25,714 bases of DNA from a virus. The stretch lies in the IMG/VR virus record IMGVR_UViG_3300006920_000214, positions 1 to 25,714 of that record; one strand, written 5' to 3'. Both the position numbers and the translations under genes were made by a program. Every line of letters starts with the position of its first letter. Position 1 is the stretch's first letter. This document shows positions 1 to 6,694 of this stretch, in pieces. The notes beneath the pieces were generated by a model. That model saw only the letters and a list, made by a program, of their open reading frames with translations, ran no database searches and had not been told where the DNA came from.

Positions 1-684
1 CTTAATTGGATGGGTAGTGATATGACTGTGGTCAACGCAGCCAGAGTGAGTTTTGACCAGAGTTCTGAGGAGTTGGGTCAATCTGGTGTAGTGGGCCAGC
101 ATATGACGCCTGTGCTGAAAGATGGAGACAAGAGGCTGATTAAGTATCTAGCCAAGCATAAGCACTTATCTCCATTCGGACATTGCTTTGCGTCTTTCTA
201 TGTAAGCTGTCCAATATTTGTTGCACGTCAACTTGTGAAACATTCGTACTTGAGGATTAATGAAGTCAGTAGGCGATACGTCAAATCGAGGCCAGAGTTC
301 TACGAGCCTGAAGTCTGGCGGGGTCAAGCCAAAGACAAGAAGCAAGGTAGTTGGGGAAGAGTAGACCTATGGAATGACGTTGATCCTCGCAATCCCCCCT
401 TCGCAACTTTTGAGACCTTCCAGCATTACCAGAAGCTGCAGGTAGAGCTTTATACCAGTATGCTTGAAGCTGGTGTGTGTGAGGAACAGGCTAGAATGGT
501 ACTTCCCGCAAATCTCATCACGCACTTTTACTGGTCCGGTAGCCTAGACGCCTTCGCTAAAATGGCTAATCTCAGGTGTGCGGGTGATAGCCAATATGAG
601 ACCAGACTAGTTGCACAAGATATATCAACCGAAATGGCTGAGTTATTTCCCTATAGCTGGGCTGCACTGAGGAGCATAACATGA
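1..684 (+). CDS. thyX: Flavin-dependent thymidylate synthase ThyX (5' end outside window)
   Basis: ThyX makes dTMP from dUMP using methylene-tetrahydrofolate and FAD/NADPH, feeding phage DNA synthesis. The frame is open to the window edge; the first internal ATG is at 10, but family members normally have a few more residues before the 'YMGSD..VVNAARVSF' start, so the true start is probably upstream. Numbering from that ATG, the signature region is RQLVKHSYLRINEVSRRY at 73-90 and the C-terminal part has EQARMVLP (159-166) and LRCAGDSQYETR (188-199), as expected for ThyX. The usual RHR-x7-S motif reads KHS-x7-S here, so both arginines are replaced. The stop overlaps the next start as ATGA. The family call is firm; activity despite the changed motif is not proven. 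Confidence 0.93.
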   Translation, partial: LNWMGSDMTVVNAARVSFDQSSEELGQSGVVGQHMTPVLKDGDKRLIKYLAKHKHLSPFGHCFASFYVSCPIFVARQLVKHSYLRINEVSRRYVKSRPEFYEPEVWRGQAKDKKQGSWGRVDLWNDVDPRNPPFATFETFQHYQKLQVELYTSMLEAGVCEEQARMVLPANLITHFYWSGSLDAFAKMANLRCAGDSQYETRLVAQDISTEMAELFPYSWAALRSIT

Positions 685-986
685 ACCGTACAATTCAAAT
701 CACTGGACTAAGAGGACGCGACTTTGATGCTAATGACATTGTGGAAACTAGCCACGATGTAGCAGCCGCTTTGCGTAATCCCGCCAAGGGCTGGCATACT
801 GAGTGTGCAACAGGTTGCGCTGCAATTATTCGCATTGCTATAAACAAAAACCCTGATCTATACACAGACAAAGATGCTGGGCTTTCGCCTATTATTGATT
901 GGGAAGCTGGCACCATTGACGCCCCACAAATCTCACTTAACCATAAAATCACATTCAGAAATATTGAGGGGATGACTGATGGCTGA
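681..986 (+). CDS. Unknown 101-aa protein downstream of thyX
   Basis: I do not recognise this protein. It is soluble-looking, with no membrane segment, and has two cysteines close together in the middle (residues 42 and 46). The start is fixed by an ATGA overlap with the end of thyX, and its own end overlaps the next gene by 8 nt, so it is probably translated by coupling in the thyX operon. The reading frame on the opposite strand here is a shadow. Phage operons of this kind often carry small accessory proteins next to nucleotide genes, but nothing in the sequence points to a function. Confidence 0.75.
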   Translation: MNRTIQITGLRGRDFDANDIVETSHDVAAALRNPAKGWHTECATGCAAIIRIAINKNPDLYTDKDAGLSPIIDWEAGTIDAPQISLNHKITFRNIEGMTDG

Positions 987-1191
987 TAAATACATTGACG
1001 TAACCCCAAGCTGGTTACAGATGACAAACGTCATAGAAACTCTTCTCACAGATGGTGACTTTGAGGGTAAGCAAACCGCACGTACTGAATTAAGGAAGAT
1101 GGCTCAAGTCGCTGACCAGTATGTGAGACTGCAGAAAATGTCTCAAGAGAAAGTGGCAGAGCAAAGTCGGGATGTGGGAGATTATGAATGA
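979..1191 (+). CDS. Unknown 70-aa protein
   Basis: This is a small, charged, probably helical protein with no recognised motif. Its ATG lies 8 nt inside the end of the preceding gene (GGGGATGACTGATGGCTG region; GGGG upstream serves as a weak ribosome binding site), and its stop is in an ATGA overlap with the next small frame. The unbroken chain of overlapping starts and stops from thyX to 1322 is the main evidence that it is real. Confidence 0.7.
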   Translation: MADKYIDVTPSWLQMTNVIETLLTDGDFEGKQTARTELRKMAQVADQYVRLQKMSQEKVAEQSRDVGDYE

Positions 1192-1322
1192 GGGTAAGAC
1201 TAGTCTACTATAACGCGAAGACTCATAAACCCTTTGCATTTAAGACTGTTAGTAGCTCAGTGGCAGTGAAAGAGCTTAGTAATTTTAAGCCTCGCGGAGC
1301 CTATCTTAAAATCGAATCTTAA
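1188..1322 (+). CDS. Unknown 44-aa basic protein
   Basis: This frame starts at the ATG of an ATGA overlap with the previous stop and ends in TAA at 1320-1322. The product begins MRVRLVYYNAKTHKPFAFKT and ends YLKIES; it is strongly basic with 8 lysines and 3 arginines. It is too short for most gene callers, but the exact stop/start overlap, which matches the preceding thyX junction, supports translation by coupling. It is the last gene before a non-coding gap. Function unknown. Confidence 0.55.
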   Translation: MRVRLVYYNAKTHKPFAFKTVSSSVAVKELSNFKPRGAYLKIES

Positions 1323-1334
1323 AAATTAAAATCT

Positions 1335-1384
1335 GAAATGGCAAAAATGGCAGACTGCCACTATGCTTTCTGCCATGCCATTTC
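1335..1384. other. Long imperfect stem-loop after the thyX operon
   Basis: GAAATGGCA (1335-1343) pairs with TGCCATTTC (1376-1384), and TGGCAG (1348-1353) pairs with CTGCCA (1370-1375), giving a 15-bp stem with a 4-nt bulge and a 16-nt loop. It starts 12 nt after the last stop of the thyX operon. There is no T-run after it, so it is not a typical intrinsic terminator; it could be an RNA 3'-end stabiliser or part of the recombination region that follows. Confidence 0.55.
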
Positions 1385-1395
1385 TGTTAGCATAC

Positions 1396-1412
1396 AAACG
1401 ATATTATCGTTT
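1396..1412. promoter_or_regulatory. Perfect 8-bp-arm palindrome, operator-like
   Basis: AAACGATA-T-TATCGTTT is a perfect inverted repeat with a single central base, lying in non-coding DNA between a stem-loop and the tRNA-like fragment. A symmetric site of this size is typical of a dimeric DNA-binding protein. No matching regulator gene is identified in the window. Confidence 0.45.
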
Positions 1413-1425
1413 ATTATCAGATATA

Positions 1426-1470
1426 TGGCTCCGGCGGTAGGGATCGAACCTACGACCAATTGATTAACAG
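1426..1470 (-). other. tRNA-Asn(GTT) 3'-half fragment, probable phage attachment site (attP)
   Basis: Read on the - strand, these 45 nt are exactly the 3' part of a tRNA: anticodon loop CTGTTAA (anticodon GTT), 3' anticodon strand TCAAT, a 5-nt variable loop TGGTC, T-arm GTAGG-TTCGATC-CCTAC, 3' acceptor strand CGCCGGA, discriminator G and encoded CCA. Similarity stops at the first base of the anticodon loop; the upstream sequence has no D-arm or acceptor 5' strand, so this is not a functional tRNA. Fragments running from the anticodon loop through CCA are the classic attP core of phages whose integrase targets host tRNA genes. No integrase lies in the window; it would have to be beyond an edge. 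The alternative is a relic of past integration. Confidence 0.75.
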
Positions 1471-1533
1471 ATAGCGTTTGTTTTCAATAGGTTACACGAT
1501 TATTAATGAAATGACTGTTATCATAAATTGGTT

Positions 1534-1572
1534 CTCTAAGTGCTTAATTAAGTGTTGACGGAAGTGCATAAC
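1534..1572 (+). promoter_or_regulatory. Tandem AAGTGC boxes upstream of primase
   Basis: TCTAAGTGCTTAA begins at 1534 and GAAGTGCATAAC at 1561, so the AAGTGC cores are 25 bp apart. The second copy lies in the spacer of the promoter at 1555-1583. A similar pair with 24-bp spacing precedes the helicase gene. Probably a binding site for a phage or host regulator (inference). Confidence 0.45.
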
Positions 1573-1583
1573 GCCTGTATCCT
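1555..1583 (+). promoter_or_regulatory. Sigma70-like promoter for the primase gene
   Basis: -35 TTGACG (1555-1560), a 17-nt spacer, and -10 TATCCT (1578-1583). The spacer begins with GAAGTGCATAAC, the same box found in the promoter at 6691-6719. Transcription would start near 1590, which rules out the upstream in-frame GTG (1552) as the primase start. Confidence 0.6.
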
Positions 1584-1626
1584 TAAAGAGTTCTTTCTTG
1601 AGGCTGTATACTATAGGACTAGGCTA

Positions 1627-2385
1627 ATGACCTATGCTGAACAACTACAGGTAATACAAAGTCTTCACCTAAGAGAAGGTGATAATGTCACCATCCAATG
1701 CCCCTTCTGTGGAACCGCCAAGAAACTTTCAGCATCTAAACAAGATGGTAAGCTCATGTGGAATTGTTACAGAGCTAGTTGCAATGGCAGGGGTATACAC
1801 TCAGGAAGACGTGACCTGCAGACTGCTAAGGAGTACGTGGCTAATAAAACTAAGATATCAAAGCAAAGATATAAGCCCATCCCCAGCCTCACCACACGCC
1901 CTGAGAACCACCCACAAGCCCTAGACTACCTAGCATCAGTCAACAGCCTAGAAGCCTACGAGAGAGGCCTCATAGAGGTCAGGTATGCCCCTGCTGAGGA
2001 CAGAGTGCTGTTCATTCAAGGGGATGGTGCAGTGGGCCGCTCATTAAGCAGTGGGACAAAATGGCTCACCTATGGCCTATTGCCAGAAGGTATAAGAGTA
2101 GGTAGTGGCTCTACAGCAGTGGTAGTTGAAGACACGCCATCTGCCTGTAGTATTAGTAGATTACCTAACACTGCTGGGATAGCAATGCTTGGCACAACAC
2201 TTACTAACTCCATTAAAACCACTCTTAATAAGTTTAATAAAGTGTATTTTATCCTTGACAAGGACGCATCAATCAAGGCTATAAATACACGCAAGTTTGT
2301 TTGTTCACATATAAAAGTGAGGTTCACTCAAAAAGACCTTAAGTGTTTAGATGTCGAGCAGATCAAGGCAGTATTATCTGCGTAA
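1627..2385 (+). CDS. DNA primase (zinc ribbon plus TOPRIM, stand-alone)
   Basis: A T7 gp4-type primase that makes RNA primers at the fork. From this start (252 aa) there is an N-terminal zinc ribbon with cysteines at 25, 28, 47 and 52 (CPFC ... CYRASC), then a TOPRIM-like fold with the glutamate at 168 (AVVVEDTPSA) and the acidic pair at 211 and 213 (FILDKD). In T7 the primase is fused to a helicase; here the helicase is a separate gene two genes downstream. The frame is open further up to a GTG at 1552, but that stretch overlaps the promoter; ATG 1627 has an AGGA-containing ribosome binding site at proper spacing and leaves a normal N-terminus ahead of the zinc ribbon. The domain call is strong. 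Confidence 0.85.
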   Translation: MTYAEQLQVIQSLHLREGDNVTIQCPFCGTAKKLSASKQDGKLMWNCYRASCNGRGIHSGRRDLQTAKEYVANKTKISKQRYKPIPSLTTRPENHPQALDYLASVNSLEAYERGLIEVRYAPAEDRVLFIQGDGAVGRSLSSGTKWLTYGLLPEGIRVGSGSTAVVVEDTPSACSISRLPNTAGIAMLGTTLTNSIKTTLNKFNKVYFILDKDASIKAINTRKFVCSHIKVRFTQKDLKCLDVEQIKAVLSA

Positions 2386-3040: not shown

Positions 3041-4255
3041 ATGGATCAGTCTATAGTTAAATCTTGCTTCAGTAATGAGTTCTACACCTCAAATAAATCT
3101 AAACTGCGATCATCCATATTCGATGATACTTTAAAAGATGTCTATGAAACGATAGTGCAAATGCACGAAAAATTTGAAGCTGATATCAGCCCAATTGAAT
3201 TATTTGGATTTTGGAAAGCTAAGAACCCAACCAGTACAGCAGCTAGAACTACTGAATTTGAGGACTTAATTGGCTCAATATATAATTCTCAGGCGGTTAA
3301 TCCTGACATAGCCAGTGATGTTATAGAAAGCCTTTGGCGGCAGTCTATTGGGCTGGATATAGCTAACTATGGCATCAAAATGTCAGAGAACGATCCCACT
3401 GCTTGGGATGGGCTACAAGCTCTACTTACTCGCGTAGCTGATGGCTACATGCCTGATGATTTTGGTGAGCCTGTCACAGATGATATCTATGAGCTTCTCG
3501 CGTGTGTGAGTAATGACAACAGATTTAAGTTCAATATCGAAACTTTAAGTAGAGAAGTCTACGGAATTGGTCGGGGAGAGTTTGGCTGCATTGCTGCATA
3601 TTCTAATGTAGGTAAGACAGCATTTGCGGTTAGCCTGTCAGCGGGACCAGCAGGTTTTTGCCAACAAGGGGCTAAGGTCGGATACCTCGCCAATGAGGAA
3701 ATAGCTAAAAAGACAAAACTCCGCGCAGTTACTGCTTATACAGGACTAACAGAACAACAGTGTAGATTAGACCCCCCTGCGGCCTATGCAAGATATTCCG
3801 GTATAAGAGACCGTTTGATTTTCTTGGAAATTACAAATTGGGATATGGCTAAGTTAGATGCCTATCTTGGTTTTGAGCAATATGACCTAATATTTGTGGA
3901 CATGGCAGACAAGATTGAACTGTCTACTAAATTCAACAGCGGTCATGAGCGTCTTCGGGAATTATACTACCGACTAAGGGAACTCGCTAAGAAGCATAAC
4001 TGTGCAATCATTGGACTATCACAAGCCTCTGCTGAGGCTGAAGGTAAGACCCGCCTCACGCCTACGATGCTTGAAGGTTCTAAAGTCGGGAAAATTGCAG
4101 AATGCGATATTCTTCTTGGCGTAGGGAAGATGAATAGCCCTGAAGAGCCTGATGATCCTACTCGCTGGATCACAGTGATGAAGAATAAGATCAGCGGCTG
4201 GCACGGTACAGTTATTTGTAATCTCGACATCCATACTTCGAGGTACGAAGTATGA
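3041..4255 (+). CDS. Replicative DNA helicase (DnaB/gp4 RecA-like core)
   Basis: A 404-aa hexameric-type helicase that would unwind the fork with the separate primase. The first 160 residues are a helical N-terminal domain. The RecA-like core starts near 165 with a Walker A-type loop AYSNVGKT (186-193; the usual first Gly is Ala), the DnaB-style catalytic glutamate region LANEE (216-220), Walker B LIFVDMAD (283-290), and a sensor/DNA-binding segment IIGLSQAS (323-330). The C-terminal KNKISGWHGT (381-390) resembles the arginine-finger region of DnaB-like helicases. GGAAG upstream supports the ATG. Its stop overlaps the next ATG (ATGA). It could alternatively be called the helicase half of a split T7 gp4. 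Confidence 0.87.
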   Translation: MDQSIVKSCFSNEFYTSNKSKLRSSIFDDTLKDVYETIVQMHEKFEADISPIELFGFWKAKNPTSTAARTTEFEDLIGSIYNSQAVNPDIASDVIESLWRQSIGLDIANYGIKMSENDPTAWDGLQALLTRVADGYMPDDFGEPVTDDIYELLACVSNDNRFKFNIETLSREVYGIGRGEFGCIAAYSNVGKTAFAVSLSAGPAGFCQQGAKVGYLANEEIAKKTKLRAVTAYTGLTEQQCRLDPPAAYARYSGIRDRLIFLEITNWDMAKLDAYLGFEQYDLIFVDMADKIELSTKFNSGHERLRELYYRLRELAKKHNCAIIGLSQASAEAEGKTRLTPTMLEGSKVGKIAECDILLGVGKMNSPEEPDDPTRWITVMKNKISGWHGTVICNLDIHTSRYEV

Positions 4256-4557
4256 TAGACCATAACATTCACTCAATCCTAGCTGTGTTAGAAGGCTCTA
4301 ACAAAGTCACTTGCCCAGAACTTCAGGGCGCACCCTTTGTGCAATCCAATAGAGGCAGTCTGATAGGCACATTAGCAAGGATGCTTATCCTAGATGGGTA
4401 TAACCCAGACCGTATTCTAATAGTTCAGCGAGGACCAACAATCTGCTTTGAGCCTCTGTCGCTAAGGGCATGGTCGAAGATGTCTATCACAGAAGCTGAC
4501 ACAAGTATTCGCTCGGCCTTGTACAGGCAAGATCAACGGTGGGGTGATGATGACTAA
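4252..4557 (+). CDS. Unknown 101-aa protein between helicase and polymerase
   Basis: Its start overlaps the helicase stop by 4 nt, and its end overlaps the polymerase start, so the three genes are translationally coupled. No motif recognised; no membrane segment. The N-terminal half (SILAVLEGSNKVTCPELQG ... RGSLIGTLARMLILDGY) has the helix spacing of a small winged-helix DNA-binding domain, but this is only an impression. The position suggests a replication accessory protein. Confidence 0.7.
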   Translation: MIDHNIHSILAVLEGSNKVTCPELQGAPFVQSNRGSLIGTLARMLILDGYNPDRILIVQRGPTICFEPLSLRAWSKMSITEADTSIRSALYRQDQRWGDDD

Positions 4558-6694
4558 AATCCTTATCGGAGACCTTGAGACCACCGTTAAGCGCATCGAT
4601 GGCAGGATAGACAATAGCCCATATAACCCAACCAATCGCCTTGTCGCGGCTGGCTGGGGGTTCTTGGGATGGGATGGTCTGGAAGACTACCAGCATTCAA
4701 TTTATTACCATAACGAGTGCATTACTCCTGACAGCGTAGATGCCTTTCAGTCTGCCTTAGATGAAGCTGATGTGGCGGTATTCCATAATGCCAAATTTGA
4801 TGTCAGTTGGCTGCTAGAAATGGGCTTTCGTATCCCAGATAAAATTGTCTGCACAATGAATGCTGAATACTTGCTGGCTAAAGGGCAGCGTATGAAGCTG
4901 TCGCTCAAGGAGACTGCACTCAGACGTGAACTTACCAACATCAAGAAGAGTGATTTGGTTGATGAGATGTTCAGAGAGGGTACAGGCTTTGAGTCTATGC
5001 CTCTGGATACAGTCACTGAATATTTAGAAGCTGACATCAGAACCACTGCTGAACTCTACTTACGTCAGCAGGATGACTTTCAGGCTGAAGAGAATAAGTC
5101 ATTACTCACGGCAGTAGACCAGATGAATGACATGCTGATGTTTCTGGTCGAGATTGAAAGAAATGGATGCCAGATTGATCTAGAAGTCTTAGCTAAGGTC
5201 GAAGATGACTTTGTTAAAGAAAAGGCTGAATTAACCTCGCGCCTGAATGAAATCGTCCAAGACGTGATGGGAGACACGCCCATAAATCTAAATTCTGGGG
5301 TGGATATGACTAAGGTCATCTACTCCCGCGAAGTTAAGGATCGTCTCGCGCACATACAGACATGGAATATTGGGACTAATGAATCTGGTAAGTCACTTAG
5401 ACCCCCGCGCATGTCTTCTGGGCAGTTTATTGATGCAGTCAGGGCCACCACTCAAATTGTCAAAAAGACGATGGCGGTGCAATGCAAGGACTGTGGCGGT
5501 GTAGGATCAATTCAGAAATACAAGAAAATCACCAGACAGAAGAATGGTAAGAAGTATTACCTGACAGGTGATCCATACAAAACTCGCAGTAAATGCCCAA
5601 ACTGCGAGGGTATTGGTGCTGTTTATGTCAGTACTGGGGTTACAGCGGGGCTGAAGATGTCTCCAACCAGCCCAGTGGATGCAAGTATCAACGGATTTAA
5701 GTCCGATAAAGAGACAATTAAAGCCTTAATTCAACAAGCAGAGCGTAAAAAAGACTCACTCGCTGTTGAGTTTTTAATTAAATTATCCCGCCTATCAGCC
5801 ATATCTACTTACTTAGATAGCTTTGTCGCGGGTTTAAAACGAGGAACTCGCGCAGATGGAATACTTCATGCAAATTTCAACCAATGTATCGCTGCTACTG
5901 GTCGCCTGTCTTCTAGTAATCCTAATGCTCAGAACTGGCCCAAGAGAGGCTTCCCTGTACGGGCTTCTATTGTCTCTAGGTTTGATGGCGGTCTGTTATT
6001 AGAGGCTGATTACTCCTCTCTTGAGATGGTTGTCGCATGTGAATTGGCGAGAGACGGACAAGGCATAGCCGACATCCTTGAAGGTAAGGATATTCACAGA
6101 CAGACTGCTAGTATTGTTAATCAAAAACCTCCCAAAGAAGTAACTAAAGTAGAGAGACAGGGCGCAAAAGCATATACATTTTTACCCCTTTTTGGTGGTA
6201 CAGGGAATGGAGAGCTGCCCCACATCAAAGCATATTTTGACCGTTTTTATACTCTATATGAGGGCATAAAGGTTTGGCATGACAGCCTCATGCGCGGTAC
6301 ACTTAAGAATGGGATCGTGCAGACGCCTTCGGGCCGACAGTATTACTGGCCTAATGTAGTCAGGACACGGGGTGGTAGGGTCAGCTTTGCCACACAAATA
6401 TTGAATTATCCAGTTCAGGGCTTCGCTGCTGACATAGTACAGATCGCATGTATTCGCGCATTAAGACTATTTAGGCAGCAAAATCTACGCTCTAAAATCA
6501 TCCTCACTGTCCACGACAGTTTGGTCTCAGATACCCACCCTGATGAAATAGATCAAGTAAAAGCAATCCTGACCACGGCTATGACTGAGGTCGGAGAGGA
6601 GCTTGAATCTCGTTTTAATTACAAGGCAGTAGTACCTCTTAAAATTGAGATTTCCAGAGGTAAAAATTGGCTTGATCAAGAGGAATATACTTGA
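4550..6694 (+). CDS. DNA polymerase, family A, with DnaJ-like zinc insertion
   Basis: The replicative polymerase, 714 aa from ATG 4550 (ATG 4547 and GTG 4544 are in-frame alternatives; 4550 has the best distance to GGTGGGG). The 3'-5' exonuclease has DLE (D8, E10), N80/D84 and Y158xxxD162, so proofreading residues are present. A four-cysteine motif of the DnaJ central-domain type follows: CKDCGGVG (C312, C315) and CPNCEGIG (C349, C352). The polymerase domain carries TGRLSSSNPNAQN (450-462), motif A LLEADYSSLE (D487), the O-helix RQGAKAYTFLPLFGG with Phe544 at the position of E. coli Phe762, and motif C TVHDS (H655, D656). I recall such a zinc insertion from phage HMO-2011. Its role is unknown; it may replace a processivity-clamp contact. 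Confidence 0.95.
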   Translation: MTKILIGDLETTVKRIDGRIDNSPYNPTNRLVAAGWGFLGWDGLEDYQHSIYYHNECITPDSVDAFQSALDEADVAVFHNAKFDVSWLLEMGFRIPDKIVCTMNAEYLLAKGQRMKLSLKETALRRELTNIKKSDLVDEMFREGTGFESMPLDTVTEYLEADIRTTAELYLRQQDDFQAEENKSLLTAVDQMNDMLMFLVEIERNGCQIDLEVLAKVEDDFVKEKAELTSRLNEIVQDVMGDTPINLNSGVDMTKVIYSREVKDRLAHIQTWNIGTNESGKSLRPPRMSSGQFIDAVRATTQIVKKTMAVQCKDCGGVGSIQKYKKITRQKNGKKYYLTGDPYKTRSKCPNCEGIGAVYVSTGVTAGLKMSPTSPVDASINGFKSDKETIKALIQQAERKKDSLAVEFLIKLSRLSAISTYLDSFVAGLKRGTRADGILHANFNQCIAATGRLSSSNPNAQNWPKRGFPVRASIVSRFDGGLLLEADYSSLEMVVACELARDGQGIADILEGKDIHRQTASIVNQKPPKEVTKVERQGAKAYTFLPLFGGTGNGELPHIKAYFDRFYTLYEGIKVWHDSLMRGTLKNGIVQTPSGRQYYWPNVVRTRGGRVSFATQILNYPVQGFAADIVQIACIRALRLFRQQNLRSKIILTVHDSLVSDTHPDEIDQVKAILTTAMTEVGEELESRFNYKAVVPLKIEISRGKNWLDQEEYT

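Follow-up and report, generated by a model that had tools for sequence, protein, structure and literature searches.

The minus strand of positions 1426-1470 in the 25,714-nt stretch of viral DNA analysed here (hereafter the window) is identical, at 45 of 45 positions, to the last 45 nt of Rhodobacteraceae tRNA-Asn(GTT), including the encoded CCA. From sequence comparisons we conclude, with a probability of about 95%, that these 45 nt are the attP core of an HMO-2011-type phage, which a tyrosine integrase would recombine with the 3' half of the host tRNA-Asn(GTT) gene. In the ocean, HMO-2011-type phages belong to the most abundant viruses. The preliminary description of this DNA had already proposed an attP core at this place, and the proposal is now backed by exact host genes, an integrase gene on an overlapping contig and a conserved site in relatives.

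Structure of the core

Read from 1470 to 1426, the minus strand is CTGTTAATCAATTGGTCGTAGGTTCGATCCCTACCGCCGGAGCCA and comprises, in order, the anticodon loop, the 3' anticodon strand, the variable loop, the T-arm, the 3' acceptor strand and CCA. The following parts are distinguished:

1426..1470, minus strand: predicted attP core, tRNA-Asn(GTT) 3' half from the anticodon loop to CCA; exact match, complete host tRNA-Asn genes carrying the same 45 nt
1426..1463, minus strand: conserved 38 nt of the core, running from the 3' anticodon strand through CCA; sites located by a generic pattern of T-arm and CCA
1464..1470, minus strand: CTGTTAA, the portion of the core that belongs to the anticodon loop; many relatives have a degenerate version

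The recognition of a precise tRNA-Asn 3' half in the preliminary description is borne out by exact copies inside complete 75-nt Rhodobacteraceae tRNA-Asn(GTT) genes, as is the sharp end of the similarity: identity to the host stops at 1470, base 1471 being T in the window and A in the host. The T-arm forms a perfect hairpin. The core lies in an intergenic position and is overlapped by no gene in the list of open reading frames. It is the sole match to the 45 nt in the window at up to three mismatches, a level reached in 0 of 100 shuffles. ARAGORN detected no complete tRNA in the window, so that 1426-1470 is a genuine half, and an Rfam search at relaxed threshold gave no tRNA match for this half.

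Gene neighbourhood and integrase

The genes and elements around the core are as follows:

about -1541 to -414 in window coordinates (L005:1361-2488): integrase, left of the window, seen in the overlapping contig L005
1..684, plus strand: thyX, cut by the left end of the window (Thy1, 140 bits)
1338..1383, no strand assigned: TGGCA/TGCCA repeat block on the integrase side of the core; conserved in the alignment with L004 and CRP-738, strongly so with CRP-738
1627..2385, plus strand: DNA primase, right border of the gap; resembles the annotated CRP-738 primase
4544..6694, plus strand: DNA polymerase, whose translation contains two CXXCXGXG motifs (CKDCGGVG and CPNCEGIG); 65.6% identity to CRP-738

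The two CXXCXGXG motifs of the polymerase (DnaJ-like insert) are a mark of HMO-2011-type phages, and the best twelve matches to this protein all belong to that type. Compared with CRP-738, the window and L005 together present the HMO-2011-type layout, with a syntenic primase-helicase-polymerase module and the integrase upstream. For the primase, a start at ATG 1627 is favoured over GTG 1552. Among phage records, megablast found nothing close to the window.

The integrase gene is absent from the 25.7-kb record of the window itself. Contig L005, which comes from another metagenome, is 100% identical to window positions 1-2121 (2,121 bp) and reaches 2.9 kb further left; a further contig, L002, shows 99.93% identity to the window over 3 kb. 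Since L005 overlaps the window identically, its integrase probably belongs to the same phage population. The preliminary description had pointed to the genome left of position 1 as the place to look for an integrase, and L005 indeed encodes an intact tyrosine integrase there, with an uninterrupted frame of 375 aa (Pfam PF00589 Phage_integrase, 53.8 bits). Residues R217, K242, R325, H348 and Y357 are invariant across 16 relatives, in which the box II His is not conserved. The profile of this integrase found no match among solved structures at 0.001.

The interval from the last listed gene to the core contains two further features: a possible frame of 44 codons (1188-1322) and the TGGCA/TGCCA block at 1338-1383, which may be an element of operator, excisionase or terminator type.

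Host gene and probable host

Complete host tRNA-Asn genes, which read TCCGGCGTAGCTCAGCGGTAGAGCAGTTGA-CTGTTAATCAATTGG..., were recognized by ARAGORN at 23 of the 24 Rhodobacteraceae loci inspected. Of 395 Rhodobacteraceae genomes drawn, 307 contain the 45 nt with no more than one mismatch, and comparison with alphaproteobacterial tRNA-Asn genes, as the preliminary description had recommended, yields many exact matches in this family. In a class-wide draw, the exact 45 nt were present in 2 of 142 alphaproteobacteria (G001, the centre, and G211), both Rhodobacteraceae; SAR11 and SAR116, because of this distribution, appear unlikely as hosts for the tRNA-Asn core. The most likely host is a marine member of the Rhodobacteraceae (Roseobacter group), so the core names the host family of an uncultured contig.

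Two elements of the host tRNA had been predicted from the half. The 5' acceptor strand TCCGGCG is correct in complete Rhodobacteraceae tRNA-Asn genes. The 5' anticodon strand was expected to be ATTGA and is actually GTTGA, with a G-T wobble, in 26 of 28 matching loci. A host pattern with ATTGA gave one match in 84,980 GTDB species, a displaced half and no gene.

Comparison with known systems

The preliminary description had considered HMO-2011-type phages to be generally lytic. This view is outdated: phages of subgroups I-III carry integrase genes, and CRP-3 is a temperate phage (PMC6918029 for CRP-3). As the lytic premise is no longer current, an attachment site comes as no surprise and is to be expected. 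CRP-3, of subgroup III and of a lineage sister to that of the window phage, integrates at the 3' end of tRNA-Met(CAT) of its host FZCC0040, as established by sequencing and PCR (PMC6918029). Its attP resembles the site in the window in being a tRNA 3' half ending in CCA, in its location in the gap between the integrase operon and the primase, in its orientation and in its flanking motif. The two phages encode related tyrosine integrases (29% identity) and differ in their target, tRNA-Met with demonstrated integration in CRP-3 and tRNA-Asn with integration predicted from sequence in the window phage. The tRNA-Met half stands at the syntenic place, in the same orientation as the Asn half, in CRP-3, CRP-212 and CRP-235, and is also found in complete tRNA-Met genes of Rhodobacteraceae. 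The proven CRP-3 site at the syntenic place is the strongest argument for a function of the tRNA-Asn half. In the accessible text of the published work on HMO-2011-type phages, an integration site is demonstrated for one isolate only; the present analysis adds tRNA-Asn as a predicted target and Rhodobacteraceae as the likely host family, and indicates that arms are retained while cores change.

The closest isolate is Roseobacter phage CRP-738 (MZ892992), with 65% identity in the integrase and 66% in the DNA polymerase. Its tRNA-Asn half occupies the same gap as that of the window (integrase 536-1660, tRNA-Asn half 2934-2979, primase at 3134), and its core differs by a T-stem pair swapped to GTTGG/CCAAC. 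No attachment site is annotated in MZ892992 or mentioned in the accessible text of PMC9038755. Another marine Roseobacter phage that targets a tRNA gene, the CHUG Roseobacter phage CRP-810, integrates at tRNA-Thr (PMC11288001); unlike the window phage, it has a 13-bp core in mid-gene and a phage tRNA-Thr gene nearby (PMC11288001).

Conservation of the half in relatives

The tRNA-Asn half stands between integrase and primase in CRP-738 and in dozens of relatives from IMG/VR. A generic pattern of T-arm and CCA was applied to 121 distinct loci in which integrase and primase are syntenic. In 114 of them, the gap between these two genes contains a single tRNA 3' half, always on the minus strand; this proportion is not an unbiased frequency because some of the loci were retrieved by core patterns. 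Among loci found by protein alone, all 15 primase-found loci that cover the gap carry one tRNA-Asn half, and so do all loci of an integrase search except L046. The seven loci lacking a half are HMO-2011, CRP-1, CRP-2, CRP-207, CRP-345, CRP-603 and L046. The six isolates among them carry HMO-2011-like integrases; for HMO-2011 (L021 with L403) and CRP-1 (L022 with L404), the T-arm pattern applied genome-wide detected no 3' half with CCA, despite the presence of the integrase. In L046 (3850-5210), the integrase is present, the gap is shortened and the tRNA half is missing, which represents a natural loss of the site.

Located with the generic pattern, the Asn halves of relatives differ from one another at few columns, whereas their flanks diverge strongly. 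(The column table of the cores, built with a pattern fixing most core columns, was used for the flanks only and not for invariance.) The columns that vary among phage halves also vary among host genes. For instance, the T-stem change from GTAGG/CCTAC to GTTGG/CCAAC in some phage halves is a real tRNA-Asn allele in 2 of 395 genomes, the phage acceptor variant CCGTCGG has a host gene with the matching TCCGACG, and the phage allele AATTTGTCG (L233) also occurs in several Rhodobacteraceae genomes. Many sites have a degenerate anticodon loop (CTATTAA, CTACTAA, CTACCAC and others); at these, the anticodon would have to be supplied by the host side, with strand exchange taking place 3' of the loop.

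Flanking motifs and possible exchange of cores

A 16-nt motif, TAAGTCATTGATTTaA, was fitted to the primase-side flank of the Asn sites. The putative arm motifs, also designated TAAGTCATTGAT, lie in the window as follows:

1404..1419, plus strand: integrase-side putative arm motif TTATCGTTTATTATCA, inverted, weak; local score 2.8, rank 34 in the window
1479..1494, minus strand: TAACCTATTGAAAACA, putative arm motif on the primase side (consensus of the group, TAAGTCATTGATTTaA); ranks second among the motif sites of the whole window

In the same flank, the motif recurs at held-out Met sites (z 24 against shuffles) and at sites of a third core type (z 9.8), and its inverted form is found on the integrase side of Asn (z 13.8) and Met (z 11.4) sites, compared with z -1.4 to 2.1 in control stretches 60-110 nt from the core; these z values are raised by relatedness among the sites and are not probabilities. 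The putative arm motif is thus present group-wide on both sides, in inverted orientation, but is strong on one side only in the window. The direct repeat CTGTTANCATA reported earlier on both sides of the core is present in two exact copies (1384-1394 and 1515-1525). Its interpretation as arm sites is not supported, the integrase-side copy being kept neither in the closest relative, L004, nor in CRP-738.

The third core type (L242, L257, L272, L273 and L283) is a tRNA 3' half that occupies the same place and ends in GCCTACCA; it was found in 0 of 41 Rhodobacteraceae genomes at up to three mismatches. On a quickly built tree of 89 integrase rows, core type requires 9 changes versus 37 in shuffles, exact counts being unsafe owing to long branches (L196, L333 and L145). 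The third type is scattered over five places in this tree, one of them adjoining an Asn phage (L242 with L176). Core type is clustered on the tree, in step with integrase clade, and related phages seem to have changed their tRNA target while keeping the att arms. We find it evenly poised whether the att site is modular, with conserved inverted flanks holding a swappable core, such that Asn, Met and third-type cores were exchanged several times while integrase position and arms were kept. If so, core exchange would be a simple means for phages to track a changed host or target.

Proposed integration and alternative explanations

The integrase gene, which would lie about 1.8 kb left of the core and be transcribed in the same direction as the primase, is predicted to encode the enzyme that recombines the phage core with the 3' half of the host tRNA-Asn(GTT) gene. 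The phage would then reside in the chromosome beside a tRNA-Asn rebuilt from the 5' half of the host and the 3' half of the phage, its opposite end being marked by the displaced 3' half of the host gene. The integrase thus presumably acts at this core, and the window phage presumably makes lysogens. The preliminary description had suggested looking for integrated copies and attL/attR junctions; none were found in host genomes or viral contigs. At E 1e-40, the integrase was detected in 0 of 395 Rhodobacteraceae genomes, the positive controls of the profile being matched; a narrower scan of GTDB gave none among 84,980 species, and 0 of 57 IMG/VR viral contigs with a complete tRNA-Asn were of the window's phage type. 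The missing prophages are compatible with integration: the sampling of pelagic hosts is sparse, and both lysogeny and use of the site may be infrequent. With the predicted site and its exact host gene, lysogeny of CRP-738 and its relatives can be tested by PCR.

The same missing prophages, in both the 395 Rhodobacteraceae genomes and the IMG/VR contigs, together with the loss of the site in L046, would also fit a relic, i.e., a genuine attP in a lineage that is now effectively lytic and integrates rarely or never. We consider this unlikely, since the frame and catalytic residues of the integrase are intact, the core still matches host alleles, covarying ones included, and CRP-3 integrates (PMC6918029). 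It is hardly credible that the half is what remains of a phage tRNA-Asn gene that formerly served translation and is now decaying. Complete tRNA-Asn genes do exist in other phages, but here the half keeps host alleles exactly although its flanks have strongly diverged, relatives show neither a complete nor a gradually decaying tRNA-Asn (0 of 200 loci contain a complete tRNA), and other tRNA halves replace the Asn half in step with integrase clade. A T-arm hairpin with CCA could, as a functional RNA or decoy, mimic tRNA, for instance against a host RNase or by occupying CCA-binding enzymes. Such a role, to which the perfect hairpin and the nearly invariant sequence would be suited, leaves unexplained the inverted flanking motifs common to the tRNA-Met sites, the dependence on integrase clade and the absence of the half in subgroup I isolates, and seems to us extremely improbable.

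Other elements at the same gene

The tRNA-Asn gene is a general insertion hotspot in Rhodobacteraceae. Islands or prophages at this gene (e.g., L102, L105, L108, L110 and L127) share the target of the window phage and are otherwise unrelated to it; they have a complete tRNA-Asn at one end and a displaced half at the other, the two copies being about 10 kb apart. In most of them, the identity reaches into the 5' anticodon strand (GA-CTGTTAA). A Rhodobacteraceae MAG (CALKOT010000088.1, L049:3358-3407) carries a displaced tRNA-Asn half with ATTGA, the complete gene being absent there; this half is probably the end of another island. On contig C7 of G198, a complete tRNA-Asn and a displaced half, at 697799 and 707836, belong to an unrelated element.
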